This document shows, piece by piece, positions 7,129 through 58,621 of a stretch of DNA of 64,000 nt. Source of the stretch: Nitratireductor sp. B36 (GTDB lineage Bacteria > Pseudomonadota > Alphaproteobacteria > Rhizobiales > Rhizobiaceae); assembly GCF_020833685.1 (NCBI RefSeq), contig NZ_JACKZY010000004.1, positions 372,001-436,000 of the forward strand, read 5' to 3'. The position numbers and the translations under genes were made by a program. The notes beneath the pieces are model-generated. The model worked only from the letters and a program-made list of their open reading frames with translations, did no database searches and was not told the DNA's origin. Each line of letters begins with the position of its first letter. The stretch's first letter is position 1.

Positions 7129-7377
7129 CAATGACAGGTGTAACGCCAAAATATCATCCAATAAATTTAACCAGCTCACTAGATTCAAGATGACTTATGT
7201 CTGTCAAGCAATTGGTCGTCGGGAAAGAGATTTTCTTGGCAGTGTTGACCGAACTCTGTTTCAATTCTCCCTTCCCCGTTATCGAAATCGCTAGCGGTCT
7301 TCCGGCCCGAATTTCGGCGCGGTTGCGCTTTCAGTGACCGCGTCTGTGTCCCGCTGAGGCCGCTTGGATAAGGACTT

Positions 7378-39182: not shown

Positions 39183-40097
39183 ATGGATATTCGCTTTCTC
39201 GAAACCTTTCTGGCGATCGTGGACTGTGGCTCGATTGCCGAGACCGCCCGCAGAACAAACAAGACGCCGGCGGCGCTTTCCCAGCGCATTCAGGTTCTTG
39301 AGCAGGAGCTTGGCCACAAGCTGATAATCCGTTCGGGACGGACCGTGCAGCCGACGGCGGCGGGTCTTGCCGTGCTTGAAAGGGCGAGGGAGCTCGTGGA
39401 AAAGGCGCGTGACCTCAGCGCACTTGCTGCAAATGGAGCACCAGCCGGCCAATTGCGTATCGGTGCCACCTCAACCGCCCTGATCGGTCTCATGCCGGAC
39501 ATCATCACAATGCTGAGCGATCGGTACCCGGCCATCGATTATTTCGTTCAGCCTGGTTCATCGTCCGAACTCTACCATCGCGTGATTGCCGGGGAGCTTG
39601 ATGCCGCTCTGATCGTCCGGCCTGACTTTGCACTGCCCAAGGCCATGGGCTGGAGCACGATCCGCGAAGAGCCGCTCGTGTTCATCGCCCCGCATTCCCT
39701 TCCCGAATTGCCCCCGCACGCCCTTATCGCCTCTCAGCGGTTCATTCTCTATGACCGCAACCAGTGGGGTGGGCAGATCGTGGCGCGGTATCTGGCCGAA
39801 AACGGGTTGGCGGTTCGTGAGTGGCTGGAGCTCGACGCGCTCGATGCAATTGCCGCGCTGGTCAGCCGCGGCCTGGGTGTCGCCATCGTTCCCGATTGGG
39901 CACCGCCTTGGCCAGAGGGTCTGACGCTGCGAAAGGTCGTTCTGCCTTCCGGAGGGGTCCGGAAAATAGGCATATTGTGGCGGCGGTCCGGCGCGCGCGC
40001 GGCTGCTGTTGATGCCTTTGTCTCTGCGTGCCGCGATGTCTCCCTGCGCCACTCAGACGGCAACGATCCCGCCGCCGCCGAGAATCCGGCGAACTGA
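39183..40097 (+). CDS. LysR-family transcriptional regulator
   Basis: 304 residues with an N-terminal winged HTH (LETFLAIVDCGSIAETARRT, KTPAALSQRIQVLEQELG) and a C-terminal periplasmic-binding-like effector domain starting near 90 (GQLRIGATSTALIGLMPDI). It is divergent from the aminotransferase gene and convergent with the aspartate dehydrogenase gene, whose 3' end it overlaps by about 45 bases. The target is inferred to be the aminotransferase. Confidence 0.9.
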   Translation: MDIRFLETFLAIVDCGSIAETARRTNKTPAALSQRIQVLEQELGHKLIIRSGRTVQPTAAGLAVLERARELVEKARDLSALAANGAPAGQLRIGATSTALIGLMPDIITMLSDRYPAIDYFVQPGSSSELYHRVIAGELDAALIVRPDFALPKAMGWSTIREEPLVFIAPHSLPELPPHALIASQRFILYDRNQWGGQIVARYLAENGLAVREWLELDALDAIAALVSRGLGVAIVPDWAPPWPEGLTLRKVVLPSGGVRKIGILWRRSGARAAAVDAFVSACRDVSLRHSDGNDPAAAENPAN

Positions 40098-40823
40098 GCC
40101 GATCGCTGAATGTGGCGTATAGGAGCCCGTCACGCCGCCGAGGGAACGGGAGGAGACACGAATGTCCCACGACAATCCCGGTCCACTTACCTCAATCTGA
40201 TGTTCCATTGTGGGAAGGTCAGGAACAGCAACAATCCGGCTGACCGTCCGGTCAAATCCCAGACCCGCAAGGGCAATGGCCGCGTGAACATTCACGTTGC
40301 GGGGAAAGCGGGCGCAGGCCTCGCGTGTCGCGCCTTCAAACATCAATCCATCGGCCTTGGGGTCGATGCCAAGGCTCTTCCCGCTCTTCGTGGTTGTTAC
40401 GGTCACTTGCTCGATGGCCGCCCGGCCATCGGCAATGCCATCCAGGGAAAGGATGGCGCCGTGCGGCACGTAAAACGTGCTGCCGTGCCGGGCCGTGATG
40501 GAGCGAACTTCCTCTTCGGTCTCGCGTCTGGCCATGGCCGTGTTGGAAAAGGCGCAGAAGTCGGCAGATCGAAGAAATCGCGGAGCAAGCTCCTGAACGA
40601 CCGAAGGCATGGCCGCCTCGACAACGAGATCGACCGGCCGCGAAAGAGCTTCGCTCGCGTCATCGATGACGATACCGTCGGCCAGGTTGAAACCTGTCAT
40701 CCGATGGACGTTGGAAACAAGAACGAAAGCGATTTCTGTGTCCGCGGAATTGTCGATCTCGCGGATGACAGCGCCCCCGATCGCGCCAGCGCCAATGATG
40801 CCAATTCGTTTCTTGTCACGCAT
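40053..40823 (-). CDS. nadX: L-aspartate dehydrogenase-family protein
   Basis: 256 residues with the N-terminal Rossmann motif GIIGAGAIGGAVI and the aspartate dehydrogenase domain (FPRNVNVHAAIALAGLGFDRT, with a His at the catalytic position). The family oxidises L-aspartate to iminoaspartate/oxaloacetate with NAD(P), for NAD synthesis or catabolism. No other NAD synthesis gene is near, so a catabolic role is as likely. Its 3' end overlaps the LysR gene on the opposite strand. Confidence 0.8.
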   Translation of the reverse strand: MRDKKRIGIIGAGAIGGAVIREIDNSADTEIAFVLVSNVHRMTGFNLADGIVIDDASEALSRPVDLVVEAAMPSVVQELAPRFLRSADFCAFSNTAMARRETEEEVRSITARHGSTFYVPHGAILSLDGIADGRAAIEQVTVTTTKSGKSLGIDPKADGLMFEGATREACARFPRNVNVHAAIALAGLGFDRTVSRIVAVPDLPTMEHQIEVSGPGLSWDIRVSSRSLGGVTGSYTPHSAIGSVRRILGGGGIVAV

Positions 40824-42598: not shown

Positions 42599-43477
42599 TT
42601 ACTTGTAGAGTTTGCTGATCGAGGCAGTTTCATCGTCGCCGTGTCCGGCCTCCACATAATCTGCATATCGCTTCCTGGCGAGCTGGACGATTGGCAGCGC
42701 GAGGCCGAGACGTTTGATTTCCGCTTCCACATTCTTGAGGTCTTTGGCCATTTGCGAGGCTTTGCTCGCGACAGGCACAAAGTCCTGCGCGTCAATCTTC
42801 GGATAGGCATATTGCAGCAGAGCGCTGTCTGCATGTCCGCCTGCTAGGCACTGCGGAAGCCTTTCCGCGGCGAGTCCGCTCTGAGTGGCCAGTCTGTGCA
42901 CTTCCGCCATGAGAACATATCCGACGCCACAGATCGCCTGATTGATAACCTTGGCGGTCTGGCCCGCGCCCACCGGTCCCATCAATGTGGTGCGACCTGC
43001 ATAGGCATCCATGAAGGGCGCCGCGCGCGCCAGCGCGTCCGGGTCGCCCCCCGCCATGATGGTCAGCTTGCCTTCGCGGGCATAACCGGGTCCTCCGGAC
43101 ACCGGAGCGTCGACCCAATCTGCGCCACAGCTGCTTTTCAGTTTCTCGGCTCGCGCCTGTGTCGGCACAGGCAGACCGGTGGAATGATCCACGATGAGAT
43201 GTGATGGGTTCGCCGCTTCGGCAATGCCACGCTGTCCAAAGACCACATCATCCACCGCACGGTCATCGAGCACGCACAGAAATATGATGCCGGCCTGTTC
43301 CGCAACGGCGCGAGGATTTTCGGCGATCAAGACATCGCTCAACTGATCATACGCTTCGGGTTCACGGTTCCACACCACCAGGCGATGTCCGGCCTGCTGG
43401 AGCTTGTGCACCATGGGCAGGCCCATCATCCCCAGACCCACAAATCCGATCAGCGCTTTTTCCTGCCGCCCAGCCAT
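42599..43477 (-). CDS. ltnD: 3-hydroxyisobutyrate dehydrogenase-family protein (L-threonate dehydrogenase-like)
   Basis: NAD(P)-dependent beta-hydroxyacid dehydrogenase of 292 residues. GFVGLGMMGLPM is the Rossmann motif, DAPVSGGPGYAREGKLTIMAGG the substrate motif, and the catalytic Lys lies in GAGQTAKVINQ. In four-carbon sugar-acid pathways LtnD oxidises L-threonate or D-erythronate at C2. Genes for the later steps (OtnI, OtnK, OtnC) lie at 52.6-55.3 kb. GGGAGGA precedes the ATG. It is divergent from the pdxA2-like gene. Confidence 0.82.
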   Translation of the reverse strand: MAGRQEKALIGFVGLGMMGLPMVHKLQQAGHRLVVWNREPEAYDQLSDVLIAENPRAVAEQAGIIFLCVLDDRAVDDVVFGQRGIAEAANPSHLIVDHSTGLPVPTQARAEKLKSSCGADWVDAPVSGGPGYAREGKLTIMAGGDPDALARAAPFMDAYAGRTTLMGPVGAGQTAKVINQAICGVGYVLMAEVHRLATQSGLAAERLPQCLAGGHADSALLQYAYPKIDAQDFVPVASKASQMAKDLKNVEAEIKRLGLALPIVQLARKRYADYVEAGHGDDETASISKLYK

Positions 43478-43504
43478 CTCGCATCCTCCCTCAGAATTTT
43501 CTGG

Positions 43505-43522
43505 ATAATTTATAATTACAGA
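43505..43522. promoter_or_regulatory. Shared operator candidate, site 1
   Basis: On the minus strand this reads TCTGTAATTATAAATTAT. It is identical at 16 of 18 positions to the site at 52479-52496 in the other divergent promoter of the same locus. It lies 28 bp before the LtnD-like start and 45 bp before the PdxA2-like start. The GntR protein encoded at 49018 is the obvious candidate to bind it. Confidence 0.6.
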
Positions 43523-43566
43523 TTATAGTGATCACATCAATCACCTCGAAGTGTAAGTTTTGCCCC

Positions 43567-44562
43567 ATGAATCAATCCATTCGCCCCATGATTGTGACCC
43601 TCGGTGACCGATACGGCATCGGACCTGAGATCGTGGCACGTACATTTATAGACAAGGGCGCTCCGGTGGAGGGAGGAATTGTCATCCTGGGGGATTGGGA
43701 CGTGTTTCGTGATGCCGCGGCCCGGTTTGGCGGAAGCCGCGAAATCCCGCGCATCTCTCGCTTGTCGGAGTTTTGCGCAGATGGCGTGCGGTTTCTGGAT
43801 CTACCGTTCGATGCACCGGTCGGACCGTTGGGGAAAGTGTCACGGGAAGCCGGAGCGGAATCACTGGCTGTTCTGGACTGGCTGACCGAAGCTGCGCGCA
43901 AGCGAGAGATTGCTGGCGCGGTTTACGGCCCGCTGAACAAGCAGGCGATGCGCGATGCGGGCCATCCAAGTGGTGATGAGCTCGAATACATCATGAAGAA
44001 CATGCCCCAATGCGCGGATGCCGGGGAGATCAACGCACTGGAAGGTATGTGGACGGCACGCGTGACCAGTCACATTCCGCTGCGCGACGTGGCCGACGCA
44101 ATCTCAGCCGATGGTATCCGCCGTGCTGCGAAGTTACTGGCCAACACGATGAGCGCGGCTGGCATTCAGGCACCGAAAATCTGTGCCGCCGGACTCAATC
44201 CACATGCCGGGGAGCAGGGCGTGTTCGGACGCGAGGAGATTGACGTGATCGCACCAGCGATCGCTGCCATGCGGGAGGATGGCTTCGATATCATCGGGCC
44301 AATTCCGGCGGACACCGTATTCGCCCAGGCCAGGGCGCAGGGCGCCAATGGCATTTTGACCATGTATCACGACCAGGGGCAGATCGCCCTGAAATTGATT
44401 GGGCTTGGCCGATCCGTGACCCTCATAGGCGGGCTGACCGTACCGTTCGCCACACCGGGCCACGGAACGGCTTTCGATATTGTGGGACAGGGGGTGGCGC
44501 GGCTGGACGGCCTGCGCGAGGCGCTTGCCCTGTGTCGCAAGATCTCCCGCAATGTGACCTGA
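43567..44562 (+). CDS. pdxA2: PdxA-family 4-phospho-tetronate dehydrogenase (PdxA2-like)
   Basis: 331 residues of the 4-hydroxythreonine-4-phosphate dehydrogenase family. Visible motifs are the VTLGDRYGIGPEI phosphate loop, metal-binding His in VTSHIPLRDV and AAGLNPHAGEQG, and MYHDQGQIALK. The genomic setting with a DUF1537 kinase points to PdxA2, which oxidises 4-phospho-D-threonate or 4-phospho-D-erythronate, rather than vitamin B6 synthesis. I choose the ATG at 43567. It leads into the ABC importer genes. Confidence 0.82.
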   Translation: MNQSIRPMIVTLGDRYGIGPEIVARTFIDKGAPVEGGIVILGDWDVFRDAAARFGGSREIPRISRLSEFCADGVRFLDLPFDAPVGPLGKVSREAGAESLAVLDWLTEAARKREIAGAVYGPLNKQAMRDAGHPSGDELEYIMKNMPQCADAGEINALEGMWTARVTSHIPLRDVADAISADGIRRAAKLLANTMSAAGIQAPKICAAGLNPHAGEQGVFGREEIDVIAPAIAAMREDGFDIIGPIPADTVFAQARAQGANGILTMYHDQGQIALKLIGLGRSVTLIGGLTVPFATPGHGTAFDIVGQGVARLDGLREALALCRKISRNVT

Positions 44563-44605
44563 TAGTCAGGCGCGTTCCGGGGAACACATAAGGGAGGAAG
44601 CAAGA

Positions 44606-45925
44606 ATGAACGCAAAACTGAATGGTTTGAAGACGCTGACATCTGTTTTGGCTTTGAGCTTGACGGGAATGGTCGCCACGCCTGTGGCGACCGCCGAGGC
44701 ACAGAGCGGCCTTTCCGGGGAAGCGCGGTACAGTTGGTGGGGCGGTCCGTCTCGAAATGAGAAAACCTACGATGTGATTGAGCTGTTCGAGAGCGAGAAT
44801 CCGGGCGTCAGCATCGTGCGGGAGCCTTCGGACTGGAGCGGATATTGGCAGAAAGTGAATGTTCAGGCCGCAGGCAGCAACCTACCCTGTATCGTTCAGA
44901 TGCAGAACCGCTGGCTCGCAAATTACGACGATCCCTCGATCCTGCTTCCGCTGGACGACCTCGTCGCTTCCGGCAACCTGGATCTCACCGGTATTCCCAA
45001 ACCACTGATCGATTCCGGCCGTGGTGAGGACGGGAAGCTTTATATGGTGCCGACGGGCGTGTTCTTCTACGTGATGTTGATGAACCAATCTCTTGCAGAA
45101 TCAACCGGCATTGCGCCCTTTGACCCTGACAGCGTGACGTGGGAGGAGTTCAAGACATGGCTCTTGGCGGTGAACGAGAAGCTGCCTGACGGGGTGGATG
45201 CTGCCGGTGGAATGCCCGTCTCGCCGGAAGCATTTATTGCCTATGTCCAGTCCCATGGGCAGAAGGTCTTTAGCGAGGGCGGTGTCGGATTTGACGAAGC
45301 CATCGTGACCGATTGGTTCAACTATTGGGAAGAACTGCGCAAGGCAGGCGCTGCTCAGGACGCGGATAGCCTTGTTGAAGAGCGCAGCGATCTGATCGAA
45401 GAGTCCGGCATCGCCAATGGCCGCCTCGTGGTGCAGCCGCGTCCGGCGAATCGCCTCGACGCACACCAGGCTGTGCTCGACACCGCCGCGCCTGGCAGCA
45501 ATCTTGATATCGCCCTTTATCCTCTTGGCCCGGATGGCGCCGGCGAGGATGTCGGTATCAACGGCATCTCGATTGCGGCTGGCTGCGAAGCGGGCGCACG
45601 CGACATCGCGGTCGCCTATACGAACTTCTTCCTGCAGGACGAACGCGCCGCCAATATCTATTCTTCGGACAATGGCGTCGTGGCCGTCGATCGTTTCCAG
45701 GAAGCCCAATACAAGATGCCCGATGCGACCGATGGTCAGAAAGAGCAGATCGAGGCACTTCGTGTTGTGTCGAAGCGGGCCAAGGGTGTTTTCTACCCCA
45801 CCGGCGCCTATCAGGCTTTGAAGGATTCTCTGCAGTCCGCCTATGAGCGTGTCGCTTTCGGGCGTTCGACCCCCGAGGAAGCAGCTGCGAACATGATCAA
45901 CGAAATCAATCGCAACATGAAGTGA
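44606..45925 (+). CDS. ABC sugar-type substrate-binding protein
   Basis: Periplasmic binding protein of 439 residues (family 1, MalE-like) with a signal peptide of about 32 residues ending ATAEAQS. The mature protein begins with a SWWGGPSRNEKTYDVIELFE segment. The WSGYWQKVNVQAAG segment and the closing helix are typical of carbohydrate binding proteins. AGGGAGGAA precedes the ATG. Ligand unknown; the neighbouring apiosidase-like hydrolase suggests a small glycoside or sugar acid. Confidence 0.92.
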   Translation: MNAKLNGLKTLTSVLALSLTGMVATPVATAEAQSGLSGEARYSWWGGPSRNEKTYDVIELFESENPGVSIVREPSDWSGYWQKVNVQAAGSNLPCIVQMQNRWLANYDDPSILLPLDDLVASGNLDLTGIPKPLIDSGRGEDGKLYMVPTGVFFYVMLMNQSLAESTGIAPFDPDSVTWEEFKTWLLAVNEKLPDGVDAAGGMPVSPEAFIAYVQSHGQKVFSEGGVGFDEAIVTDWFNYWEELRKAGAAQDADSLVEERSDLIEESGIANGRLVVQPRPANRLDAHQAVLDTAAPGSNLDIALYPLGPDGAGEDVGINGISIAAGCEAGARDIAVAYTNFFLQDERAANIYSSDNGVVAVDRFQEAQYKMPDATDGQKEQIEALRVVSKRAKGVFYPTGAYQALKDSLQSAYERVAFGRSTPEEAAANMINEINRNMK

Positions 45926-45983
45926 GACCGGTTCGGGCGCGCCACGGCGCGCCCGATACCCCTTCCCGACGCTCGAGGTAAGC

Positions 45984-46919
45984 ATGAAGGATCAGCACGC
46001 CAGATCCCGGCGCAAGCGCCACAGGCTGACGCCACAACAAAGCGAAAGCCGCGCGGCTTACATGTTTCTGATGCCCTGGTTCATCGGTCTGGTCCTTATA
46101 ACGATCGGACCGGTCATCGCATCGCTTTATCTGTCGTTTACCCGGTACAATCTGTTTTCGGCCCCGCAATGGGTGGGGTTTGAGAATTACATCGATCTCC
46201 TGTTCTGGGATCAGGTGTTCCACGATTCCGTGATCGCCACCGCGATATATGTTCTTTGCTCAGTGCCCCTGATCCTGATCGCGTCGCTCCTGGTGGCGGC
46301 CGTACTCAATCAGGGGTTGTCGGGCTTGGCGATCTATCGCTCGCTCTTCTACATCCCTTCCCTGATCGGCAGCAGCGTGGCCATTGGTTTTCTGTGGCTT
46401 CAGGTTTTCGGTGACGAAGGTATCTTCAACGATTTTTTGGGGTGGTTCGGCATTGCCGGCAAGAGTTGGGTCTCCGATCCATCCACGGCGCCAGCGACAC
46501 TGGTTGCGCTGAATGTCTGGACCTTCGGAGCCTCGATGGTGATCTTCCTCGCGGGGCTGCGGCAAATTCCTGCATCTTACTACGAAGCAGCGAAGATGGA
46601 CGGGGCCAGCAGCATCGCGATCTTCCGCCGCATCACCTTGCCCTTGTTATCGCCGATCATCTTTTTCAATCTGATCCTGCTCACCATCCAGTCCTTCCAG
46701 GGTTTCACGCAGGCATGGATCCTTTCGCGTGGCACAGGAGGCCCTGCGAACTCCCTGATGCTTTACACCGTCTACCTCTACAAGCAGGCGTTCGAACAGC
46801 TCAACATGGGTGCTGCAACCGCCATGGCCTGGTTGCTCTTGCTGGTCATCGCACTGATCACCGGGGTTTTGTTCTGGTCGGCCAGGTATTGGGTCTTCTA
46901 TGGAGATGACAAACAATGA
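45984..46919 (+). CDS. ABC sugar transporter permease (MalF type)
   Basis: 311 residues, six predicted membrane helices, with the EAA loop YYEAAKMDGASSIAIFRRI followed by TLPLLSP. The N-terminal 25 residues are basic and cytoplasmic. It overlaps the next permease by four bases (ATGA). Confidence 0.92.
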   Translation: MKDQHARSRRKRHRLTPQQSESRAAYMFLMPWFIGLVLITIGPVIASLYLSFTRYNLFSAPQWVGFENYIDLLFWDQVFHDSVIATAIYVLCSVPLILIASLLVAAVLNQGLSGLAIYRSLFYIPSLIGSSVAIGFLWLQVFGDEGIFNDFLGWFGIAGKSWVSDPSTAPATLVALNVWTFGASMVIFLAGLRQIPASYYEAAKMDGASSIAIFRRITLPLLSPIIFFNLILLTIQSFQGFTQAWILSRGTGGPANSLMLYTVYLYKQAFEQLNMGAATAMAWLLLLVIALITGVLFWSARYWVFYGDDKQ

Positions 46920-47749
46920 GCCAAGTCAGACGCCTTGCCATGCATATGGGCCTTGTCGTGGCTCTGTGCGCGATGCTTTACCCCGTGGCCTGGATGATTT
47001 CCTCCTCGTTCAAACCGGAGGCAATGATATTCTCCTCGCCGGGTTTGATCCCCGAAGTCGTCACCCTCGAGAACTACAGGAATGGCTGGTTCTCGCAGCG
47101 TGATGCGACCTTCGGTCTGTTTCTGGCAAACTCGTTCATCGTGTGCGGATTTGCCATCATCGGGAACCTGTTTGGCGCATCTTTGGCCGGCTATGCATTT
47201 GCCCGGCTGAAGTTTCCGCTGAAACGGCTCTGGTTCGCGATCATGCTCGGATCGATCATGCTGCCGATCCACGCGCAACTCGTGCCGCAATATCTGCTGT
47301 TTCTGAAACTGGGCTGGGTGAACACCTACCTGCCGCTGATCGTTCCCAAATTTTTGGCGACCGACGCGTTTTTCGTGTTCCTCATGGTGCAGTTCATGCG
47401 CACACTTCCGGCCGAACTGGAGCAGGCAGCAGAGATTGACGGGGCGACATTCTGGCAACGCTACTGGCGCATTGTTCTGCCCCTGTCGCTGCCCGCGCTC
47501 GTGACGACGGCCGTGTTCACGTTCATCTTCACCTACAACGATTTTCTCTCGCAGCTGATCTATCTGCAAGAGTTGAAGCACAAGACCGTGCCTCTTGGTC
47601 TCGCATTGTTTCTGGATGCGGGCGGCGGGTCGTCTTCATTCGGCGGGCTGATGTCGATGTCGGTGCTCTCGATAGGGCCGGTTCTGGGATTCTTCCTTGC
47701 ATCACAACGGTTTCTCACGCGGGGCATCGCCACGCAGGGTTTGAAATAA
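46916..47749 (+). CDS. ABC sugar transporter permease (MalG type)
   Basis: 277 residues with the EAA loop [20 protein letters not shown] followed by VLPLSLPA. It partners the MalF-type permease. Stop and ATPase start are separated by 19 bases. Confidence 0.92.
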
Positions 47750-47768
47750 CATTCGGAAAGCAGGGCCA

Positions 47769-48944
47769 ATGGGCGATCTGAAACTTGAAAGACTGGGTAA
47801 GGCCTACGGCACGTTTCATGCGGTGAAGGACCTGAGCATTGACGTAGCCGACGGTGAGTTTCTCGTACTTGTCGGACCTTCAGGCTGTGGCAAGTCAACA
47901 GCGCTACGCATGATCGCGGGGCTGGAAGACATCACCAGTGGCACGCTTCGCATCGGCGGTGAGGTGATGAACGAGGTGCGTTCGAAGGACCGCGACATAG
48001 CGATGGTATTCCAGAACTACGCGCTCTATCCCCATATGACCGTGTACGACAACATCGCATTTTCGTTGCAGATTCAGAAATACGACAAGGCCGAGACCGA
48101 TCGGCGCGTGAAGGATGCCGCGCGCGTTCTGCAGCTGGAGGATCACCTGAAAAGGCGGCCCGGTCAGCTCTCGGGCGGCCAGCGCCAGCGCGTGGCGATG
48201 GGGCGGGCGATTGTACGCCGTCCCGCCGTCTTCCTCATGGATGAGCCGCTTTCCAATCTCGATGCTAAACTGCGGGTGCAGATGCGCGCCGAGATTGCCG
48301 CTCTCCAGGACCGGCTGGGCGTTACCACGATATATGTCACGCATGATCAGATCGAAGCCATGACCATGGGGGATCGAGTCGCGGTCATGAAGGATGGTGA
48401 GCTGCAGCAGATCGGATCACCGGATGAAATCTACAACCGTCCGGCCAACACTTTTGTCGCGACTTTCATGGGGTCGCCCGCGATGGCGCTGCTCTTCGCA
48501 GACTTTGCTCTGGAAGGTGCGGGCGCAATGCTCAGGATCGGCAATCAGGAGCTGCGCATCGATGGGCAGATGTTGGAAAAGCGTCCGGATCTGCAAGGTT
48601 ATAACGGCCGTCGATTGATCATTGGCATTCGTCCCGAACACATGGGAGATCCGGCAATGTCGACTGTTGCGCAAACCATCGAGGGAGATGTGTTTTTGCG
48701 TGAATCCCTTGGGTCGGACATCATGGTGCATTTTCAGATCGATGGAGAGGCGGCTCCGGTCGTATCGCCCGATACTTTGGAATCGCTGCCTGATGACAAT
48801 TCGCAAATGCGCGCCACCTGCATTGCACGCTTCGACCCGCGCAGTGATGTGACTGTACCCGGCAGACGGACGATTGCGGTGGACGTTTCCGCACTGCATT
48901 TCTTCGACGCGGCGACCGGCGAAGCAATCTGGGGCGATGCGTGA
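47769..48944 (+). CDS. ABC sugar transporter ATPase (MalK/UgpC type)
   Basis: 391 residues with Walker [10 protein letters not shown], signature [14 protein letters not shown], Walker [12 protein letters not shown] and switch His in [11 protein letters not shown] long C-terminal TOBE domain (about 240-390) includes IGIRPEHMG. All key residues are intact, in contrast to the decayed relative at 55520-56608. Confidence 0.93.
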
Positions 48945-49017
48945 TTTGCGGCGTAAAAGCTTGTAAATCAGTGCTACTCTGGATATCTGGGCCAAAATCA
49001 GCATCGGGGTTTCCAAT

Positions 49018-49722
49018 TTGAAAGCGCGCAAAATCGTTCGCCGTTCCCTGCATGAAGAAATTCTCGAGCAGATACGAGAGATGATTGTCGAGGGGCGATG
49101 GAGGCCTCGCGAGATCCTGCCTGAGATGCAGCTGACCGAAGAGCTGGGTGTGTCCAGAACGCCGTTGCGTGAGGCGCTCAAGGTCTTGTCTGCCGAAGGT
49201 CTATTGGAGGTGCGGCCAAGGTCCGGGGCGCAAATCCGTGTGCTTTCGCCCGAGGAGACGCGCGCCCTGTTTGAGGCCGCTGGCATGATTGAATCCTCAT
49301 CGGCCCGGCTCGCCGTCGATCGGGCCACTCAGGCGCAGATTGCCAGGATTGAGGAATTGCATCGAAAGATGCTCGTGGCGTACGAGAAAGGTAGGCGCGC
49401 TGATTACTTCGATCTCAACCAGCGCATTCATATGGCCATTGTCGGGGCCGCCGGAAACGACGTTCTGTCGGAGCTTCATGCGGGTCTGTTGATGCGCATG
49501 CGGCGAGTGCGATTTGCCTGTACGAATCGTGCAGAAGACTGGGACCTCGCCATCGAGGAGCATGCCGACATGCTGAAGGCGTTGAAGGAGAAAGACGCTG
49601 ACCAGCTGGCGTCCCAGTTGGATCACCATATGGAAAAAGGCTGGCAGCGGGTTCGCGAGTTCGTCCAGGACGAATACGAGCAATCCCAGAATGCGGCGGT
49701 CGCATCGTCAGCGCTCGACTGA
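49018..49722 (+). CDS. GntR-family regulator with FCD domain
   Basis: 234 residues: winged HTH (MQLTEELGVSRTPLREALKV) and FCD domain (about 80-215). FCD His residues are seen in LNQRIHMAIVGAAGN, EEHADMLKAL and LDHHMEKG. The start is TTG; the region before it contains CGGGG. It stands in the middle of the sugar-acid locus and probably controls both divergent promoters through the 18-bp sites at 43505 and 52479. Its 3' end overlaps the convergent amidohydrolase by 15 bases. Confidence 0.87.
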   Translation: MKARKIVRRSLHEEILEQIREMIVEGRWRPREILPEMQLTEELGVSRTPLREALKVLSAEGLLEVRPRSGAQIRVLSPEETRALFEAAGMIESSSARLAVDRATQAQIARIEELHRKMLVAYEKGRRADYFDLNQRIHMAIVGAAGNDVLSELHAGLLMRMRRVRFACTNRAEDWDLAIEEHADMLKALKEKDADQLASQLDHHMEKGWQRVREFVQDEYEQSQNAAVASSALD

Positions 49723-50664
49723 AATCTCGGCGATATCCAGACCATAGGTGGCTGCAGCGCAGCCAGAGAATAGGCTGACAATGTCCGGGCGCGGCAGGTC
49801 ATGCACGGCGCGCTTGTAGGCCGAAAACATCGCCGCAAATGATATGCACAGCCGATCAACCGGGAAGTTGCTCGCAAACATGGCGCGACCGGGGCCGAAG
49901 ATCGTGATCAGTTCGCGCAGGATGTGGATGTTCTGCTCTTCTGGCCAGATGCCGGGAGCCAGCCCTATGCCTGAGAGCTTCACGACCGTGTTCTCAAGGT
50001 CCGCAAAACGGACGATTGCCGCGCGCCAGGCCGCCAGATCTTCGTCGCTGCGCTGAGCGGGCAATCCGCAATGGTTCAGGATGATTCTGGTTTCAGGAAA
50101 GTCGCGCGCCAGATCGGCAGCGGCGTCGAGATGCCACCATGGGGTCTGCAACTCGAAATGCAGCGATGTGGCTGCCAGTCTGGCATACCCGTCGCGCCAC
50201 TTCGGGTCGTCCATGGAGCCGGCCGCTCCTCGCCGAGCTTCTTCTCTTGGAAGGGCCATTGGCTTGTGGCGAACAGAGCGCACCAGGGCTCGCCGGGCGA
50301 GCGCTTCGAGTTGCCCGTCCAGATCGTCGCTATCCAGCCAGATTTGCGCTGCCGCTGCCCAGGGCGCTGCTTCCCCAAGAGAGGCAAGCCAGTCAATTTC
50401 CGCGCAGGCCATGCCATATTGTGGTTCGGCTTCCATGTGGACATCCGCCACAATGCGATGGGCGCCATGATCGTGCCGGTAATCCTCCGGCAGGTAGTTC
50501 TTTCGGATCGCACCATAATTGCCATACCGGAATGCCAGAAAGGGCGGCGTTTGCAGCCACGGATAGGCCACGGGGCCGCTCAGGTCCCAGTAATGGTGAT
50601 GGGCATCGACAATCGCCAGATCACGCAGAAAGCGTTCCGTTTCGGGATCGATCGTCCGGGTCAA
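49708..50664 (-). CDS. Amidohydrolase_2-family protein (sugar lactonase-like)
   Basis: TIM-barrel hydrolase of about 318 residues. IVDAHHHYWDLSGP and YPWL at the N terminus are characteristic of the L-fucono/L-rhamnono-lactonase branch. A later metal-site His lies in ILNHCGLP, and FASNFPVDRL near 265 supplies the Asp region. It may open an aldonolactone to the free acid that feeds the tetronate enzymes. The TTG at 50664 overlaps the stop of the upstream glycoside hydrolase, so the two are coupled. A longer frame would overlap that gene extensively and is rejected. Confidence 0.8.
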   Translation of the reverse strand: MTRTIDPETERFLRDLAIVDAHHHYWDLSGPVAYPWLQTPPFLAFRYGNYGAIRKNYLPEDYRHDHGAHRIVADVHMEAEPQYGMACAEIDWLASLGEAAPWAAAAQIWLDSDDLDGQLEALARRALVRSVRHKPMALPREEARRGAAGSMDDPKWRDGYARLAATSLHFELQTPWWHLDAAADLARDFPETRIILNHCGLPAQRSDEDLAAWRAAIVRFADLENTVVKLSGIGLAPGIWPEEQNIHILRELITIFGPGRAMFASNFPVDRLCISFAAMFSAYKRAVHDLPRPDIVSLFSGCAAATYGLDIAEISVER

Positions 50665-52454
50665 GACGGGATCAGTTCCAGCATCATGCCCCAGTCGAGC
50701 GCAGGATCGGGGCTTTCGGGCAGTCGGATGAGTGCGCTTTTCTCCACCATCAGCTCTACGGGATCGGGCAACCACGCGCCGGACCTCGGGTCAAACCACG
50801 TGGCACGGTAGCGGTCGAACTGTTTGGTCAGCCCGCGCATATAGGTCTCGGTTGCGCAGTTTGCTTCAAAATACAGAAGGAACCATGATCTATCTTTTGC
50901 CCCGGCGCAATAACTCCACCCCTCATAGCCCATGGGGTTGGCTGTCCTGTTGGGAATGATGTGTTCTGCCTCCGGCACGAGCTCGCGATAGGCCGTTCCC
51001 TTGACCATGGCGAAGGTCTTGAGGTGCTTGACCGTCTCGGCGGATGAGAATTTAAACCCTTCCCACATCATGACCTTGGTTCCCGGTTCGACGGAGGCCT
51101 GCCAGATCCCCTCGCACCCATAGAAATATCCGGCATAGCCACCCGATAGAAGGCTGCCATACATGCCCGAGCGGACATACATGTCGTCCTCGGGGGTGTT
51201 GCCCGGCTTGCCATAGGGATAGGGCAGGCTCAAACCCTCAAGGCCCGAATAATATGGCTCGCCGTTCAGGGCGGGAAGCGTGGGCTCGTGGTGAAAGATC
51301 TCGGTCAGATACCAATAGGTATAGTGCTCTCGCGAGTTTCCACTTTGATGCATGTCGATCCAGCGGCACTCGTCCGCTCCGCCAAAATTCACCAATGAGG
51401 ACGGGCGCGAATTTGCTGAAAGGATCGTGCCGAAGGGAGGCTTGCCCCACCGGTCAATCACCAGATTGCAAGGCGCGTTGTATTCGCGGCTGGGAATGGT
51501 GTTCTCGTAGAGGTCATAGTGGATCGGGCTGAAGATCGCATTGTGCGCCTGATAGCGGCAGAACACATAGTGGATGAAGCGGGCATAGCTTTCTGGAAAG
51601 TCGTAATGCTTCTTCCACATCGGGCCCGTGTCGCGGCGCGCCACCTCGATAAAGGGCACGATGCCCATCTCGAACAGGATATCCATCTTCTTGTCGAGCG
51701 TCTTGAAATAGTCCGGGTTCACCCGATCATAGTCGGGCACCACATCCTCGAACCCAGGCACTTTGCCGGGAAACAGAAAGGGGCGCTCGCCATTGTCGTC
51801 GTGCATGGACTTGGCGAACCCTTCCGGGGTGGGCCAGGTGTGCCGCACGCAATCGCCATCCGCATCAAAGAGGTTGTGGGACTTTCCGTCCTCGTTCCAG
51901 CATGGCTGGGCGGCGATCAGTCCGACGGAGTTGAACCCCTGCTTCTTGCGAAAACGGATGTAATCCGCGATCGAAGCGTCGGGTCCGAGGTCTCGCTGCG
52001 TATCGTCCTTTGGCAGCGGGAAGCGAAAGCTTGGGACAGCCCACCAGGTGTCGGCGATCATGAAAAAGGGCGTGCCATCGGCATATTCCAGGCCCCTACT
52101 GTCTGCCGTCACCCGGATCATGCCACGCCGGTTCGGGTTTTCAGTCAGGGCCGCAGCGCTTTGGCCATTGGCGGTGAAAGTGCCCTTTAGCCCCTCGATA
52201 GCCCTGTCTCCGGTCGAGGAACCCGCTCGCCATGACCAGGTGCCTGGCCGCGGCGCGCACAGGCGCACGACGAATTCGGCGCCACCGTTCCAGAACCCAT
52301 AGACCCTTCGCGAGAACCCCGGCCCCGACAGGTCAACCCATACCTCGGCATCGCAATAAGGATCAGCGGGTGGAGACGCCATGTGGAACACCAACTGATG
52401 AGGTTCCCAGACGGGGATTGTCGGGCTCGAAGAAAGGTCGATGGATGCAGTCAC
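50661..52454 (-). CDS. Apiosidase-like (DUF4038) glycoside hydrolase
   Basis: About 597 residues. The N terminus (about 10-95) resembles DUF5060 (PVWEPHQLVFHMASPP, FWNGGAEFVVRLCAPRPGTW). Residues about 115-470 form a DUF4038/apiosidase-like TIM barrel (FFMIADTWW, RKKQGFNSVGLIAAQPCW, NLVIDRWGKPPFG). A C-terminal beta domain follows. No signal peptide is seen, so it acts in the cytoplasm on an imported glycoside. The GTG at 52454 has GGGAGG seven bases upstream, which rules out a longer frame overlapping the kinase gene. It shares a divergent promoter with OtnK. Confidence 0.82.
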   Translation of the reverse strand: MTASIDLSSSPTIPVWEPHQLVFHMASPPADPYCDAEVWVDLSGPGFSRRVYGFWNGGAEFVVRLCAPRPGTWSWRAGSSTGDRAIEGLKGTFTANGQSAAALTENPNRRGMIRVTADSRGLEYADGTPFFMIADTWWAVPSFRFPLPKDDTQRDLGPDASIADYIRFRKKQGFNSVGLIAAQPCWNEDGKSHNLFDADGDCVRHTWPTPEGFAKSMHDDNGERPFLFPGKVPGFEDVVPDYDRVNPDYFKTLDKKMDILFEMGIVPFIEVARRDTGPMWKKHYDFPESYARFIHYVFCRYQAHNAIFSPIHYDLYENTIPSREYNAPCNLVIDRWGKPPFGTILSANSRPSSLVNFGGADECRWIDMHQSGNSREHYTYWYLTEIFHHEPTLPALNGEPYYSGLEGLSLPYPYGKPGNTPEDDMYVRSGMYGSLLSGGYAGYFYGCEGIWQASVEPGTKVMMWEGFKFSSAETVKHLKTFAMVKGTAYRELVPEAEHIIPNRTANPMGYEGWSYCAGAKDRSWFLLYFEANCATETYMRGLTKQFDRYRATWFDPRSGAWLPDPVELMVEKSALIRLPESPDPALDWGMMLELIPS

Positions 52455-52478
52455 AAAAAGGCCTCCCGCAACATGATT

Positions 52479-52496
52479 TCTGTAATTACTAATTAT
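52479..52496. promoter_or_regulatory. Shared operator candidate, site 2
   Basis: Plus-strand TCTGTAATTACTAATTAT. It matches the site at 43505-43522 at 16 of 18 positions. It lies 25 bp before the glycoside hydrolase start and 118 bp before the kinase start. TATAC and TTGAC-like elements nearby may belong to the two promoters. Confidence 0.6.
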
Positions 52497-52613
52497 ACAC
52501 TTGACCTCTGTCAACGCACGGGCTTTCTTGAAGCGATCAATGGCGGCTTGCTTGCGGGTGCATACTCTCGCTCCAGAGTGGCAGGCGCATGAAAGCGCGA
52601 GGGGGGGGTAGGT

Positions 52614-53885
52614 ATGGCAGCCATTTTGGGATGCATTGCCGATGATTTTACCGGTGCAACAGACCTGGCGGGCTTGCTGGGCCGCAGCGGCATGCGTGTA
52701 TCGCTCAGGATTGGCGTGCCTGCCGAACCGCCCTGCGATACGGCACCGTTTGAAGTGATTGCGCTGAAATCGCGAACCGCGCCGCGCGCGCAGGCCATCG
52801 CAGAGACGCGGGCAGCGTTCAGATGGTTGAAAGAGGCAGGTGCGCGACGCTTCTTCCTGAAATACTGCTCCACTTTCGACAGCACTGCTGAGGGCAATAT
52901 CGGACCGACAGCAGAAGCATTGATGACGGATCTCGGCATCAGGCAGACGGTGTACTGCCCGGCCTTTCCGGAAAACGGGCGGACCGTTTTTATGGGAAAC
53001 CTCTTCGTGGGTCAGCAGCCGTTGGCGGAGAGTCCCATGCGGGACCATCCCTTGACGCCGATGCGAGACAGCAATCTCATGCGTCTCCTGAATCCCCAGG
53101 TTCAGGGCTCGGTGGGACTTGTCGACCGCACTACGGTTGCCCAGGGGGAGCAAGCAATCCAAAAGGCGCTGGAAGCACTGGCGACACAAAACATCGCACA
53201 TGCGGTGATCGATGCGGTCGACGACACGGATCTTGAACGGATTGCGAGCGCCTGCCGCACCATGCCGTTGCTGACTGGCGGATCGGCCCTGGCGATGTCC
53301 TTGCCCGCGCTTTATCGATCGGAGGGTCTGATCTCCGGGGATACCGCACTGCCCAGCGCGCCACGCCTGGCCCGCACGACAGTGGTGCTCTCGGGAAGCT
53401 GTTCGGCCATGTCGAATCGGCAGGTGGAGCATTATATCCGCCAGGGTGCGCCTTCCTTATGCATCGACCCTCTTGAAGTTGCGCAGAATGGGCAGGCAGC
53501 AGCGTTGGATTGGCTTGAAAAACAGGACCTGACCGAGGCACCCATCATCTACGCCACGGCCGAACCGGCCAAAGTCAAACATGCTCAATCAAAACTGGGC
53601 GCGGCCCGGGCGGGCGCGTTGATCGAGGAAACATTGGCGTTTTGCGCCGTTGCAGCGCGTGACGCCGGTGCAAGGCGCTTTATCGTCGCGGGCGGAGAAA
53701 CATCGGGGGCTGTGACCCAGGCACTGGGCGTGTCGCAACTGGATGTCGGAGCGGAAATCGCACCGGGCGTCCCTTGGACCTATTGCCATTCGGCAGGCCA
53801 TCCCATCGCAATGGCCCTGAAGTCGGGCAATTTCGGCGCCGAAGGTTTCTTTGACGATGCCCAATCAGTTTTGGAGAGAACATGA
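52614..53885 (+). CDS. otnK: Four-carbon acid sugar kinase (DUF1537, OtnK-like)
   Basis: 423 residues of the DUF1537 kinase family. The N-terminal domain has CIADDFTGATDLAGLL (substrate Asp residues). The C-terminal nucleotide domain has SGSCSAMSNRQ and VAGGETSGAVTQALG. It phosphorylates 3-oxo-tetronates or tetronates at C4. It forms an operon with OtnC (four-base ATGA overlap) and OtnI, the set known for L-threonate and D-erythronate breakdown. Confidence 0.9.
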   Translation: MAAILGCIADDFTGATDLAGLLGRSGMRVSLRIGVPAEPPCDTAPFEVIALKSRTAPRAQAIAETRAAFRWLKEAGARRFFLKYCSTFDSTAEGNIGPTAEALMTDLGIRQTVYCPAFPENGRTVFMGNLFVGQQPLAESPMRDHPLTPMRDSNLMRLLNPQVQGSVGLVDRTTVAQGEQAIQKALEALATQNIAHAVIDAVDDTDLERIASACRTMPLLTGGSALAMSLPALYRSEGLISGDTALPSAPRLARTTVVLSGSCSAMSNRQVEHYIRQGAPSLCIDPLEVAQNGQAAALDWLEKQDLTEAPIIYATAEPAKVKHAQSKLGAARAGALIEETLAFCAVAARDAGARRFIVAGGETSGAVTQALGVSQLDVGAEIAPGVPWTYCHSAGHPIAMALKSGNFGAEGFFDDAQSVLERT

Positions 53886-54532
53886 ACACGGAAATCCAGC
53901 TGCGGGAACAGATCTGCTTGCTCGCAAAGTCGATGTTCGATCGCGGGCTGACCGGTGGCAGCACCGGCAACATCTCCGCCCGCACGGAGGACGGTGGTCT
54001 TTTGGTCAGCCCCACGGGCACCAGTTTCGGCCGACTGGACCCTGACACCCTCAGCCGATTTGACGCTGATGGCGTGCAGATTTCGGGCAAGGCGCCAACC
54101 AAGGAGATGCCCCTTCACGAGGCATTCTATCAAACACGCTCCACCGCGGGCGCCGTCGTGCATCTGCATTCGTGTCATTCCGTGGCGCTTTCAATGATGC
54201 CTGATATCGATGCGGACAATTTTCTCCCACCGCTGACACCCTACGGGATCATGAAGCTCGGCAAGGTGAAACTGCTACCCTTCTTCCTGCCCGGCGACCC
54301 GGCTATGGGTGAAGCAGTGCGTGGATTGGCGGGAAAGCGCTCGGCGGTGATGCTGGCCAATCATGGGCCGGTCGTGGCTGGCAAGGACGTGGAGGCAGCC
54401 TGCAACGCCATTGAAGAGCTTGAGGATACTGCCCGTCTCGCCATGGTGACACGCGGCCTGGGTCCCCGTTTCTTGACCGACGATCAGGTGAGCGCTCTGG
54501 TGACCAAATTCAACATCGAGTGGGATCAATGA
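53882..54532 (+). CDS. otnC: Class II aldolase (3-oxo-tetronate 4-phosphate decarboxylase, OtnC-like)
   Basis: 216 residues of the class II aldolase/adducin family. GLTGGSTGNISAR is the phosphate-binding loop. Metal His residues are in VVHLHSCHSVAL, and ANHGPVVAG carries the third. Glu in KEMPLHEAFY is the catalytic acid/base. In the tetronate pathway it decarboxylates 3-oxo-tetronate 4-phosphate to dihydroxyacetone phosphate. It overlaps its neighbours on both sides by four bases. Confidence 0.9.
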   Translation: MNTEIQLREQICLLAKSMFDRGLTGGSTGNISARTEDGGLLVSPTGTSFGRLDPDTLSRFDADGVQISGKAPTKEMPLHEAFYQTRSTAGAVVHLHSCHSVALSMMPDIDADNFLPPLTPYGIMKLGKVKLLPFFLPGDPAMGEAVRGLAGKRSAVMLANHGPVVAGKDVEAACNAIEELEDTARLAMVTRGLGPRFLTDDQVSALVTKFNIEWDQ

Positions 54533-55299
54533 AGTTTTCCGCAAACCTTGGCTTTCTCTGGACGGATCGATCTTTGCCATCCGCCATCCATGCGGCAAAG
54601 AAAGCTGGCTTCGATGCCGTGGAATGTCACTGGCCCTACGATGTACCTGCCGTTGAAGTGCAAGCTGCGCTTCAGGAAACCGGCCTTGCGATGCTCGGCC
54701 TCAACACTCGACGCGGGAACGTGAAAGACGGAGACAACGGTTTGGCCGCGCTCCCCGGGCGTTCCCCTGAGGCGCGCGCCGCCATCGATGAGGCAATCGC
54801 CTATGCCGTGGCCGTCAAGGCAGCCAGTGTGCATGTGATGGCGGGTTTCGCATCCGGCGCTGCGGCAGAAGAGGTGTTTGTTGAGACCCTGCGATATGCC
54901 TGCGCGAAGGCGCAGTCTCACGGGATCACCATCCTGATCGAGCCGCTCAACAGCTATGATGCGCCCGGATATTTTCTGAGCACGACCGATCAGGCACTGA
55001 GGATCATGGACGCGGTTGGCATCGCGAACCTGAAGCTGATGTTCGACTGTTATCACATCCAGTTGATGGAGGGGGATCTGTCCAACCGCATCAGGCACCT
55101 GCTCCCGCGCATCGGTCACATCCAGTTTGCCTCCGTTCCCGATCGCGGGCCACCGGATCACGGGGAGGTGAGTTATCCTCACATCTTCGATCTGATAGCT
55201 GATCTTGGCTATACGGCCCCTCTTGGCGCGGAATACAAGTCCGTCGGAGATACCCGAAGCTCGCTTGGATGGCTTTTTGATATGAAACGACGCGGATAG
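54529..55299 (+). CDS. otnI: Hydroxypyruvate isomerase-like protein (2-oxo-tetronate isomerase, OtnI-like)
   Basis: 256 residues, TIM-barrel isomerase (AP endonuclease 2 superfamily). Metal/catalytic Glu are in LIEPLNSYDAPGYFL and GAEYK, and DCYHIQLMEG and HIQFA supply the other ligands. OtnI converts 2-oxo-tetronate to 3-oxo-tetronate, the OtnK substrate. I use the ATG at 54529, overlapping the OtnC stop, rather than one nine bases upstream. It ends the operon. Confidence 0.9.
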   Translation: MKFSANLGFLWTDRSLPSAIHAAKKAGFDAVECHWPYDVPAVEVQAALQETGLAMLGLNTRRGNVKDGDNGLAALPGRSPEARAAIDEAIAYAVAVKAASVHVMAGFASGAAAEEVFVETLRYACAKAQSHGITILIEPLNSYDAPGYFLSTTDQALRIMDAVGIANLKLMFDCYHIQLMEGDLSNRIRHLLPRIGHIQFASVPDRGPPDHGEVSYPHIFDLIADLGYTAPLGAEYKSVGDTRSSLGWLFDMKRRG

Positions 55300-55519: not shown

Positions 55520-56608
55520 TCAACCCATCCGCCTGCCTTCATGATCGAAAAGGCACAACCATTCGCTGGGGAAGGTAACACTCACGGGGTCGCCCGGCGC
55601 ATGTTTCTTGCCTTCCCAGCTGAGCGTGTTCACGGTCAGCTTGCCGTTAGATCCCAGAGCGAGCGTCAATTGTGTCTCAGGGCCGCTCTGCTCGATGAAC
55701 TTGACGCGGCCTTCCAATAGGTTCGGACTATTTCGTCTTTGCAGAACGCAGTCCTCCAGTCGAATGCCGAGAAAGGCTGCATTCGGTTTCGACCGCGCGT
55801 CTGCGGGCAGCTCGATTGCGAGTTTCGGCTCGGTATGCGGCATGAAGACCGGACCTTGCTGCAGCAAAGCGACTGAACCTTCGAGCAGGTTCATGGGTGG
55901 TGCGCCGATGAAACCGGCCACGAATGTGTTTTCCGGTTCTCGGTAGATCTCATCCGGTGCTCCGATCTGCTCGACGCGCCCGCCGCGCAAGACCACGATT
56001 TTGTCGGCCATGGTCATGGCGTCCACCCGATCATGGGTAACAAAGATCATCGTGGAACGGAGCCGCTGATGCAGAAGCTTTATCTCGCGGCGCATCTGAA
56101 CGCGCAGCGCTGCGTTCAGATCGGAAAGCGGCTCGTCAAACAGGAATACCGAAGGCCGGCGTATGATGGCGCGGCCCATGGCGACACGCTGGCACTGCCT
56201 GCCCGAGAGCTGGCGCGGGAAGCGGTCCAGCAGGCCGTCAAGGCCGAGAAGTTTAGCCGCCTCACTTGCGCTTTTTTGCACGTTCGTTCTTCTGGACGCC
56301 GGTCATTTTGAGGGGAAAGGCGATATTGTCGGCCACGGTCATATGTGGATAGAGCGCATAGTTCTGAAACACCATGGCCACGTCCCTGTCCTTTGGCGCA
56401 AGCTCGGTGAACAGAGTCCGACCGATGCGGATCTCGCCACCGCTGACACTTTCCAGCCCCGCCAACATGCGCAACAGTGTCGAATTCCCGCAGCCTGAAG
56501 GCCCGACGAAGACCACGAACTCTCTGTCTTCTATGCGATGTCGGCGCCATGGATGACCTCGGTCTGCCCAAAGGATTTGACGATCTTCGAGAACGACACG
56601 GTAGCCAT
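55520..56608 (-). pseudogene. Decayed sugar ABC transporter ATPase (UgpC/MalK type)
   Basis: A UgpC-like gene read from ATG 56608 runs into a stop after [15 protein letters not shown]... because one base is missing in the codons for the IAIED-like segment (about 56530). A second frame change follows near 56270. In addition, Walker A reads GPSGCGNST (Lys to Asn) and the signature reads [14 protein letters not shown] (Gly to Arg and Arg to Cys). Both changes would abolish ATPase function. The C-terminal TOBE part is still readable. Active ATPase for the locus is at 47769. Confidence 0.85.
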
Positions 56609-58455: not shown

Positions 58456-58621
58456 ATTAGCAGTTCAGAATAGGCAATTTGTATCATGAGCTCAGATTGC
58501 CCCTCCCGTAAACAGAGTTTCGGCAAAGTCGGGCAGGCTGTTGCCATCAGCAGGATTATGCCGACGCTCCGAGACGATTTCTACTGTGAGTTTCGGTCCG
58601 AGGATGGGGAAATACAGATTC

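Follow-up and report, generated by a model that had tools for sequence, protein, structure and literature searches.

Catabolism of L-threonate and D-erythronate runs through LtnD or DenD, OtnI, OtnK and OtnC and ends in dihydroxyacetone phosphate (DHAP). In the D-apionate pathways, reportedly described by Carter et al. in 2018 with OiaK and RuBisCO-like proteins, a DUF1537 kinase acts on a 3-oxo acid. The Bacillus subtilis hydrolase YesR belongs to family GH105. Excerpts of PMC12540250 outline the tetronate route, and passages of other papers give Asp187 and Glu284 as the catalytic pair of the hydrolase BT_1012 (PMC4032388), Trp20, Arg25 and Asn254 of the binding protein YesO as holding the carboxylate of unsaturated galacturonate (PMC7596534), and DhuI, of the RpiB superfamily, as isomerizing the unphosphorylated pectin product DHU (PMC12838403). 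Here we analyse a 12.7-kb cassette of Nitratireductor sp. B36 in which tetronate-type enzymes stand with a sugar-type importer, a glycoside hydrolase and a lactonase-like amidohydrolase. It occupies positions 42599–55299 of a 64,000-nt stretch of contig NZ_JACKZY010000004.1 (positions 372,001–436,000, forward strand; hereafter the window). We noticed no paper on this gene combination in the open-licence literature searched.

We consider the chances evenly balanced that this is a transferable cassette, controlled by a GntR/FCD regulator, through which an acidic glycoside is imported and cut in the cytoplasm, with a tetronate back end that is interchangeable between lineages. In such a pathway, a YesO-type ATP-binding cassette (ABC) importer would take up a small acidic, carboxylate-bearing glycoside, and a leaderless DUF5060–PF13204 hydrolase would cleave it in the cytoplasm. 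A COG3618-type amidohydrolase would open one product, a lactone or hydroxyacid; a beta-hydroxyacid dehydrogenase (bHAD), a PdxA-type dehydrogenase or both would oxidize the product to a keto-tetronate; and OtnI, OtnK and OtnC would convert this to DHAP. The front end (importer, hydrolase, amidohydrolase and regulator) would stay constant, and the back end would be swapped between lineages.

The cassette and its operator-like sites

By open reading frame (ORF) and family assignments, the interval holds every gene named in the original prediction, together with a PdxA-family gene, a GntR/FCD regulator and operator-like sites that it had not mentioned. A second species of the genus (genome G680) matches it in gene content and order, at 94% identity and collinear with window positions 42603–55290. 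The G680 flanks, fetched for 4.2 kb and 3.1 kb past the ends, have no match to the window, and the other matches between the two are short and fall in the ABC-ATPase gene. Because the G680 match stops there, the cassette borders are those first proposed, and the surroundings differ in the two species. It is near certain that the interval is one genuine unit, and the proposed grouping of its genes is borne out by their presence and joint conservation. The cassette also seems to be transferable. The hydrolase is rare: with the own genome included each time, it was found in 6 of 397 genomes of the order, 2 of 394 of the family and 2 of 10 of the genus.

An 18-bp pattern, ATAATTWRTAATTACAGA, stands at both divergent promoters of the cassette, between the bHAD gene and pdxA (site 1, 43505–43522, forward strand; identical in G680) and between the hydrolase gene and otnK (site 2, 52479–52496, reverse strand; pattern search). 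The window contains two exact matches, with 0.00 expected at up to three mismatches; a third match, with three mismatches, is the opposite strand of site 1. As the pattern was built from its two sites, the exact matches hold by construction, and the evidence lies in the lack of a third genomic site: across the whole 4.19-Mb genome, up to two mismatches return two sites, and the reversed pattern returns none. Sites with zero to three mismatches also lie upstream of the hydrolase in genomes G680 and G056 and in loci L013 and L081, in the bHAD/pdxA gap of G680, and upstream of the binding-protein gene in G056 and L013. This placement of the pattern puts the hydrolase pair and the otn genes under one regulator, and probably also the importer, which would be read from the pdxA promoter; the units of the cassette are likely to be co-regulated. 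The probable controller is the GntR/FCD protein (49018–49722, forward; PF00392 and PF07729), whose relatives are accompanied by operator-like sites and which probably binds those described here. The original prediction had tied the hydrolase and lactonase to the otn genes by co-expression; the shared sequence motif alone backs this, as predicted co-regulation.

Front end and back ends across lineages

Thirteen alphaproteobacterial-type loci were compared: the window, G680 (L100), G056 (L008), nine of Devosia/Pelagibacterium type (L013–L021) and one from Rhizobium sp. BK251 (L081); given fetched lengths of 13–22 kb and contig ends, absences among them are lower bounds. The binding protein, permeases and amidohydrolase stand beside the hydrolase in 13/13 loci. 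The Devosia algicola amidohydrolase (L013, 11773–12700) is split over two frames, by a real break or a sequencing error, and L015 is a Devosia-like locus in a metagenome-assembled genome labelled as a cyanobacterium (Kaiparowitsia), probably a binning contamination. With a leaderless hydrolase (by eye) beside importer genes in every locus fetched, the proposal of intact import followed by intracellular hydrolysis is supported. Ten loci carry bHAD.

The genes downstream of this front end vary. OtnK and OtnC occur in three of the loci (window, G680 and G056), and OtnI and PdxA in two. G056 has the same divergent hydrolase/otnK layout, at 63% identity for the hydrolase, 49% for OtnK and 57% for OtnC. 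A coenzyme A (CoA)-transferase is found in 11 loci, three of them with a CitE-like lyase and eight with an enoyl-CoA hydratase, RraA and an RpiB-like isomerase. Of these, the CoA-transferase, CitE-like and RraA assignments are best NCBIfam matches below cut-offs, and the hydratase exceeds a subfamily cut-off. Of 10 whole genomes searched, three have no PF07005 (DUF1537) match (Devosia marina, D. subaequoris and Pelagibacterium lentulum; completeness not stated). Because of these two distributions, of otnK and of PF07005, the tetronate route is just one exit among several and does not define the system. The neighbourhood check proposed for the hydrolase and OtnKCI confirms linkage to importer and amidohydrolase, and does not support the idea of the otn genes as the needed continuation of the pathway.

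In the window itself, the kinase and decarboxylase are well assigned. OtnK, the 3-oxo-tetronate kinase (DUF1537; 52614–53885, forward), and OtnC, the 3-oxo-tetronate 4-phosphate decarboxylase (53882–54532, forward), exceed their NCBIfam equivalog cut-offs (NF043035, 542.2 vs 350; NF043034, 287.6 vs 250), and these two names from the original prediction stand. The 2-oxo-tetronate isomerase-like OtnI (54520–55299, forward) has NF043033 as its best family. The bHAD (42599–43477, reverse; Pfam NAD_binding_2/NAD_binding_11) had been called LtnD, a name rejected on the curated cut-off (NF043037, 143.4 vs 350) and on its three best plasmid-borne relatives (44–50% identity), which adjoin relatives of the amidohydrolase; GarR also falls short of its cut-off (177 vs 341), and the enzyme stays unassigned. 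The PdxA-family dehydrogenase (43567–44562, forward; PF04166, 256 bits; longest ORF from 43528) falls below every PdxA/D-threonate equivalog cut-off listed, and its closest solved structure is D-threonate 4-phosphate dehydrogenase (PDB 6e85, 171 bits). DUF1537 genes number two in the window genome and three in G680. A second OtnK/OtnC pair of the own genome (L105, C2, 7392–9289; 546 and 297 bits) lies, by eye, near genes for a LysR regulator, a bHAD, an aldehyde dehydrogenase and a short-chain dehydrogenase/reductase.

A scan of an 84,980-species collection confirmed 128 relatives of the hydrolase, of which 79 loci were kept; with L008 they form the 80 loci used for neighbour counts (L001–L007 and L009–L012 were omitted as short or as repeats of L017–L019 and L021). 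Within 5 kb of the hydrolase, the 69 non-alphaproteobacterial loci, many of which end at contig ends so that counts are lower bounds, contain no amidohydrolase, OtnK or OtnC, four RraA, eight RpiB-like, five DUF296-like, four MalF and two bHAD genes. The DUF296-like genes (PPC domain; by eye) lie in L026, L063, L065, L066 and L071, and the proteins of L063, L065 and L066 have leader-like N termini. In Parablautia muri (L073, 8032–13926), three tandem hydrolase copies follow ABC-importer genes and an RpiB-like gene. The whole plasmid collection holds no close hydrolase, just four weak records at 22–26% identity.

RpiB-like genes lie within 5 kb of the hydrolase in 16/80 loci (8/11 alphaproteobacterial-type and 8/69 others), and farther away in L061. 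All 17 sequences lack the phosphate-binding residues: the Arg 11 residues past the active-site His, equated with MtRpiB Arg113, is Trp, Glu, Gln or Leu in each, the Arg–His pair of RHxxR is replaced with the last Arg kept, and REHN reads VEHD. The single canonical comparator was the C. thermocellum enzyme, as the L095 RpiB proved to belong to the altered subtype too. Because these residues are replaced, the isomerases probably act on free sugars. Those of L027, L040, L046 and L061 have an apparent leader peptide. The altered subtype also occurs beside the L095 cluster and in tripartite ATP-independent periplasmic (TRAP) transporter operons of Sinorhizobium, Skermanella and Rhizobium; in these FadR–TRAP–'rpiB' gene runs (L110, L111 and L112, each 7001–7447), the isomerase is 76–78% identical to the altered L095 type and annotated as ribose 5-phosphate isomerase B. 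No PF02502 protein is encoded in the window genome, which rules out a part for an RpiB-like isomerase in the pathway encoded there; the cassette must do without one.

Substrate of the front end

The hydrolase (50661–52454, reverse) matches PF13204 at 108.3 bits (gathering cut-off 26.5), carries an N-terminal DUF5060 and is the sole PF13204 match in the window genome. Its likely start is GTG 52454, which differs from that of the longest ORF, and no signal peptide is seen by eye, as expected of the leaderless apiosidase-like enzyme first proposed. The putative catalytic residues D314 and E399 are invariant in 45/45 aligned hydrolases and were equated with the BT_1012 pair by motif, with no residue-level superposition. 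The fold is that of BT_1012/8t9w, and the cassette is likely to encode a genuine glycoside hydrolase. As GH140 and a GH5 mannanase fit this fold almost equally, reading the substrate from it was abandoned. Tuliposides, ascorbate glucosides and methylerythritol glucosides were also considered as candidate substrates and set aside for want of a way to probe them.

The importer comprises a periplasmic solute-binding protein (44606–45925), permeases of UgpA/MalF (45984–46919) and UgpE/MalG type (46916–47749), both below cut-off (UgpA 81 vs 335; UgpE 115 vs 297), and a UgpC/MalK-type ATPase (47769–48944; UgpC 454 vs 432), all on the forward strand. YesO is the closest solved structure of the binding protein (117 bits). 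Its carboxylate-holding triad is kept entire in 9 of 11 aligned hydrolase-linked binding proteins (the window, seven more of alphaproteobacterial type and L024); the Chloroflexi proteins of L051 and L072 keep Arg25 alone, and in the two controls, taken from loci without the hydrolase (L092 and L093), both Arg25 and Asn254 are absent. This pattern suggests that the imported ligand is acidic and other than YesO's own, and we lean somewhat towards an acidic glycoside.

The amidohydrolase (PF04909; 49708–50664, reverse) probably starts at TTG 50664, overlapping the hydrolase stop. Of its proposed fucono/rhamnono-lactonase-like identity, the COG3618 lactonase-type fold stands, and assignment to L-fuconolactonase does not (79.1 vs 400 for the L-fucono-1,5-lactonase equivalog NF052480). 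Nine relatives align at 41–58% identity. In nine plasmid stretches (L092–L098, L106 and L107), an amidohydrolase relative (42–49%) is present in 9/9, the hydrolase in 0/9 and a bHAD relative in 5/9 (36–49%). The Microvirga ossetica plasmid (L092) carries, in order, bHAD, amidohydrolase, RraA, a sugar-type ABC importer, CoA-transferase and hydratase; identity to locus L009 is 69% for RraA, 64% for the CoA-transferase and 55% for the hydratase, and just 23% for the binding protein. TRAP genes accompany the relative in Roseinatronobacter (L095), PdxA and tripartite tricarboxylate carriers in Chelatococcus (L093) and Ponticoccus (L096), PdxA and bHAD in Mesorhizobium (L094) and Methylobacterium (L107), and CoA-transferase, hydratase and tricarboxylate-type binding proteins in Variovorax (L106); L097 and L098 carry no annotation. 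Judged by these neighbourhoods, the compound handled by the amidohydrolase and dehydrogenases would be one that some bacteria take up as such, carboxylate carriers often being encoded close by, and probably an acid part of the substrate; the hydrolase would then be an accessory that releases this compound from a glycoside. Of the linear route first drawn from glycoside through lactone and acid to tetronate, import and hydrolysis, predicted co-regulation, the lactonase fold and OtnK/OtnC are supported, and the necessity of otn is not. Nor is the simple glycoside-to-lactone order: no sugar 1-dehydrogenase was recognized among the cassette proteins scanned (Pfam/NCBIfam), and relatives of the amidohydrolase occur without the hydrolase, in several cases with bHAD.

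Several observations weigh against the proposed acidic-glycoside pathway. Lactonase chemistry is not assured, as Asn replaces the barrel-end Asp of 4dlf in 10/10 aligned amidohydrolases; 6uvz likewise has Asn. OtnI (277.6 vs cut-off 325) and bHAD score below their cut-offs, and the role of PdxA is unclear. The neighbourhoods classed as an acid module are mixed, with the sugar-type importer of L092 and sugar-type ABC genes beside L094, and the absence of the hydrolase was scored on plasmid stretches, the host chromosomes of these strains not having been searched for it. The Trp/Arg/Asn triad could be structural. YesO's sugar-hydroxyl contacts Asp75, Asn127 and Lys284 are kept in 0/11 binding proteins and Ser286 in 3/11, with Q, F, V and I at these positions in the window protein, so the ligand should differ from that of YesO.

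Other accounts fare less well. An independent tetronate locus might simply adjoin an unrelated glycoside locus: across genomes, the front end can occur without the otn genes, and the window genome has its second OtnK/OtnC locus elsewhere. Yet operator-like sites are common to both units, both are present together with sharp ends in collinear G680, and the divergent layout recurs in G056; chance adjacency was judged unlikely on these grounds, and we give it very little weight. Alternatively, the ligand could be a saturated or unsaturated galacturonide from which the hydrolase frees a uronate, isomerized in other lineages in unphosphorylated form by an RpiB-like enzyme in the manner of DhuI, with the amidohydrolase and otn enzymes handling the other sugar. 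To our knowledge, unsaturated uronyl hydrolases have other folds, which counts against this pectin-fragment route, as do the lack of PF02502 in the window genome and of any KduD- or KDG-type enzyme among the annotated cassette proteins. A YesO-like binding protein, RpiB-like neighbours uniformly lacking phosphate-binding residues, and the RpiB-family membership of DhuI given in excerpts of PMC12838403 speak for it, and the route is doubtful rather than remote.

The original prediction had raised an apioside as one hypothesis. On that linear route, apiose would be released and oxidized, and the amidohydrolase would open the resulting apionolactone for entry into the tetronate enzymes. The nearest characterized relatives of the hydrolase are indeed the PF13204 family and GH140 structures, and a lactonase-type fold is present, but the hydrolase fold leaves the sugar open, the kinase is not OiaK (NF042436, 122.3 vs 700; 115.2 for the genome's second DUF1537 protein) and the window genome has no match to the RuBisCO-like PF00016. 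The OiaK/RuBisCO-like apionate route was rejected for these two absences, the other apiose route not having been searched. We find this whole sequence of steps improbable and apiose an unlikely sugar.

Outside the cassette, a MalK-type ABC-ATPase piece without its N-terminal part (55520–56281, reverse) is probably a remnant gene, by eye and DNA similarity. By eye, 58541–61348 (forward) encodes a large outer-membrane protein that resembles autotransporters and has repeated motifs, and a LysR-type regulator gene is convergent with an aspartate-dehydrogenase-like gene (116 vs cut-off 184) at 39183–40823.

Comparison with described systems

Returning to the acidic-glycoside pathway, we tentatively extend it, with less than even confidence, to the DUF5060–PF13204 subfamily at large, whose members may form a new group of intracellular enzymes that cleave acidic (uronide- or lactone-type) glycosides. 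A fixed front end of YesO-type importer, hydrolase and COG3618 enzyme would feed a branched or lactonized acid into three interchangeable back ends: tetronate enzymes leading to DHAP; a CoA-transferase with a CitE-type lyase; or a CoA-transferase, enoyl-CoA hydratase and RraA with an RpiB-like isomerase acting on unphosphorylated sugars. If so, the subfamily would open a modular pathway for plant compounds that has not been described before. The cassette also suggests a single uptake-and-cleavage front end joined to different exits into central metabolism. The analysis ties a sizeable uncharacterized hydrolase subfamily to a precise, self-contained candidate partner set, making its substrate directly testable, and flags an RpiB-like subtype without phosphate-binding residues that records name ribose 5-phosphate isomerase B.

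The cassette shares OtnK and OtnC at curated cut-offs with L-threonate/D-erythronate loci, has in OtnI a best match below its cut-off and would likewise lead to DHAP; unlike them, it has a bHAD that is not LtnD, and neither DenD nor a TRAP or major facilitator superfamily acid importer is seen in it, while PdxA, the ABC importer, hydrolase, amidohydrolase and GntR regulator go beyond them. A DUF1537 kinase for a 3-oxo acid links it to the D-apionate pathways, from which it differs in having OtnK in place of OiaK and no RuBisCO-like protein in the genome. The amidohydrolase has the fold of the COG3618 lactonases (4dlf, 6uvz, 2-pyrone-4,6-dicarboxylate hydrolases and Atu3138) but is at most 25% identical to them, has Asn at the 4dlf Asp position and misses the fuconolactonase cut-off. 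Similarly, the hydrolase resembles the GH140/PF13204 apiosidases (BT_1012 and 8t9w) in fold and, putatively by motif position, in its Asp/Glu pair, but differs in its 17–20% identity, extra N-terminal DUF5060 and, by eye, cytoplasmic location. Finally, the B. subtilis rhamnogalacturonan importer YesOPQ, with the cytosolic hydrolase YesR, provides the closest solved binding protein, the carboxylate-binding triad and a precedent for import followed by cytosolic hydrolysis, whereas the cassette hydrolase belongs to another family and its binding protein has not kept the sugar-hydroxyl contacts.

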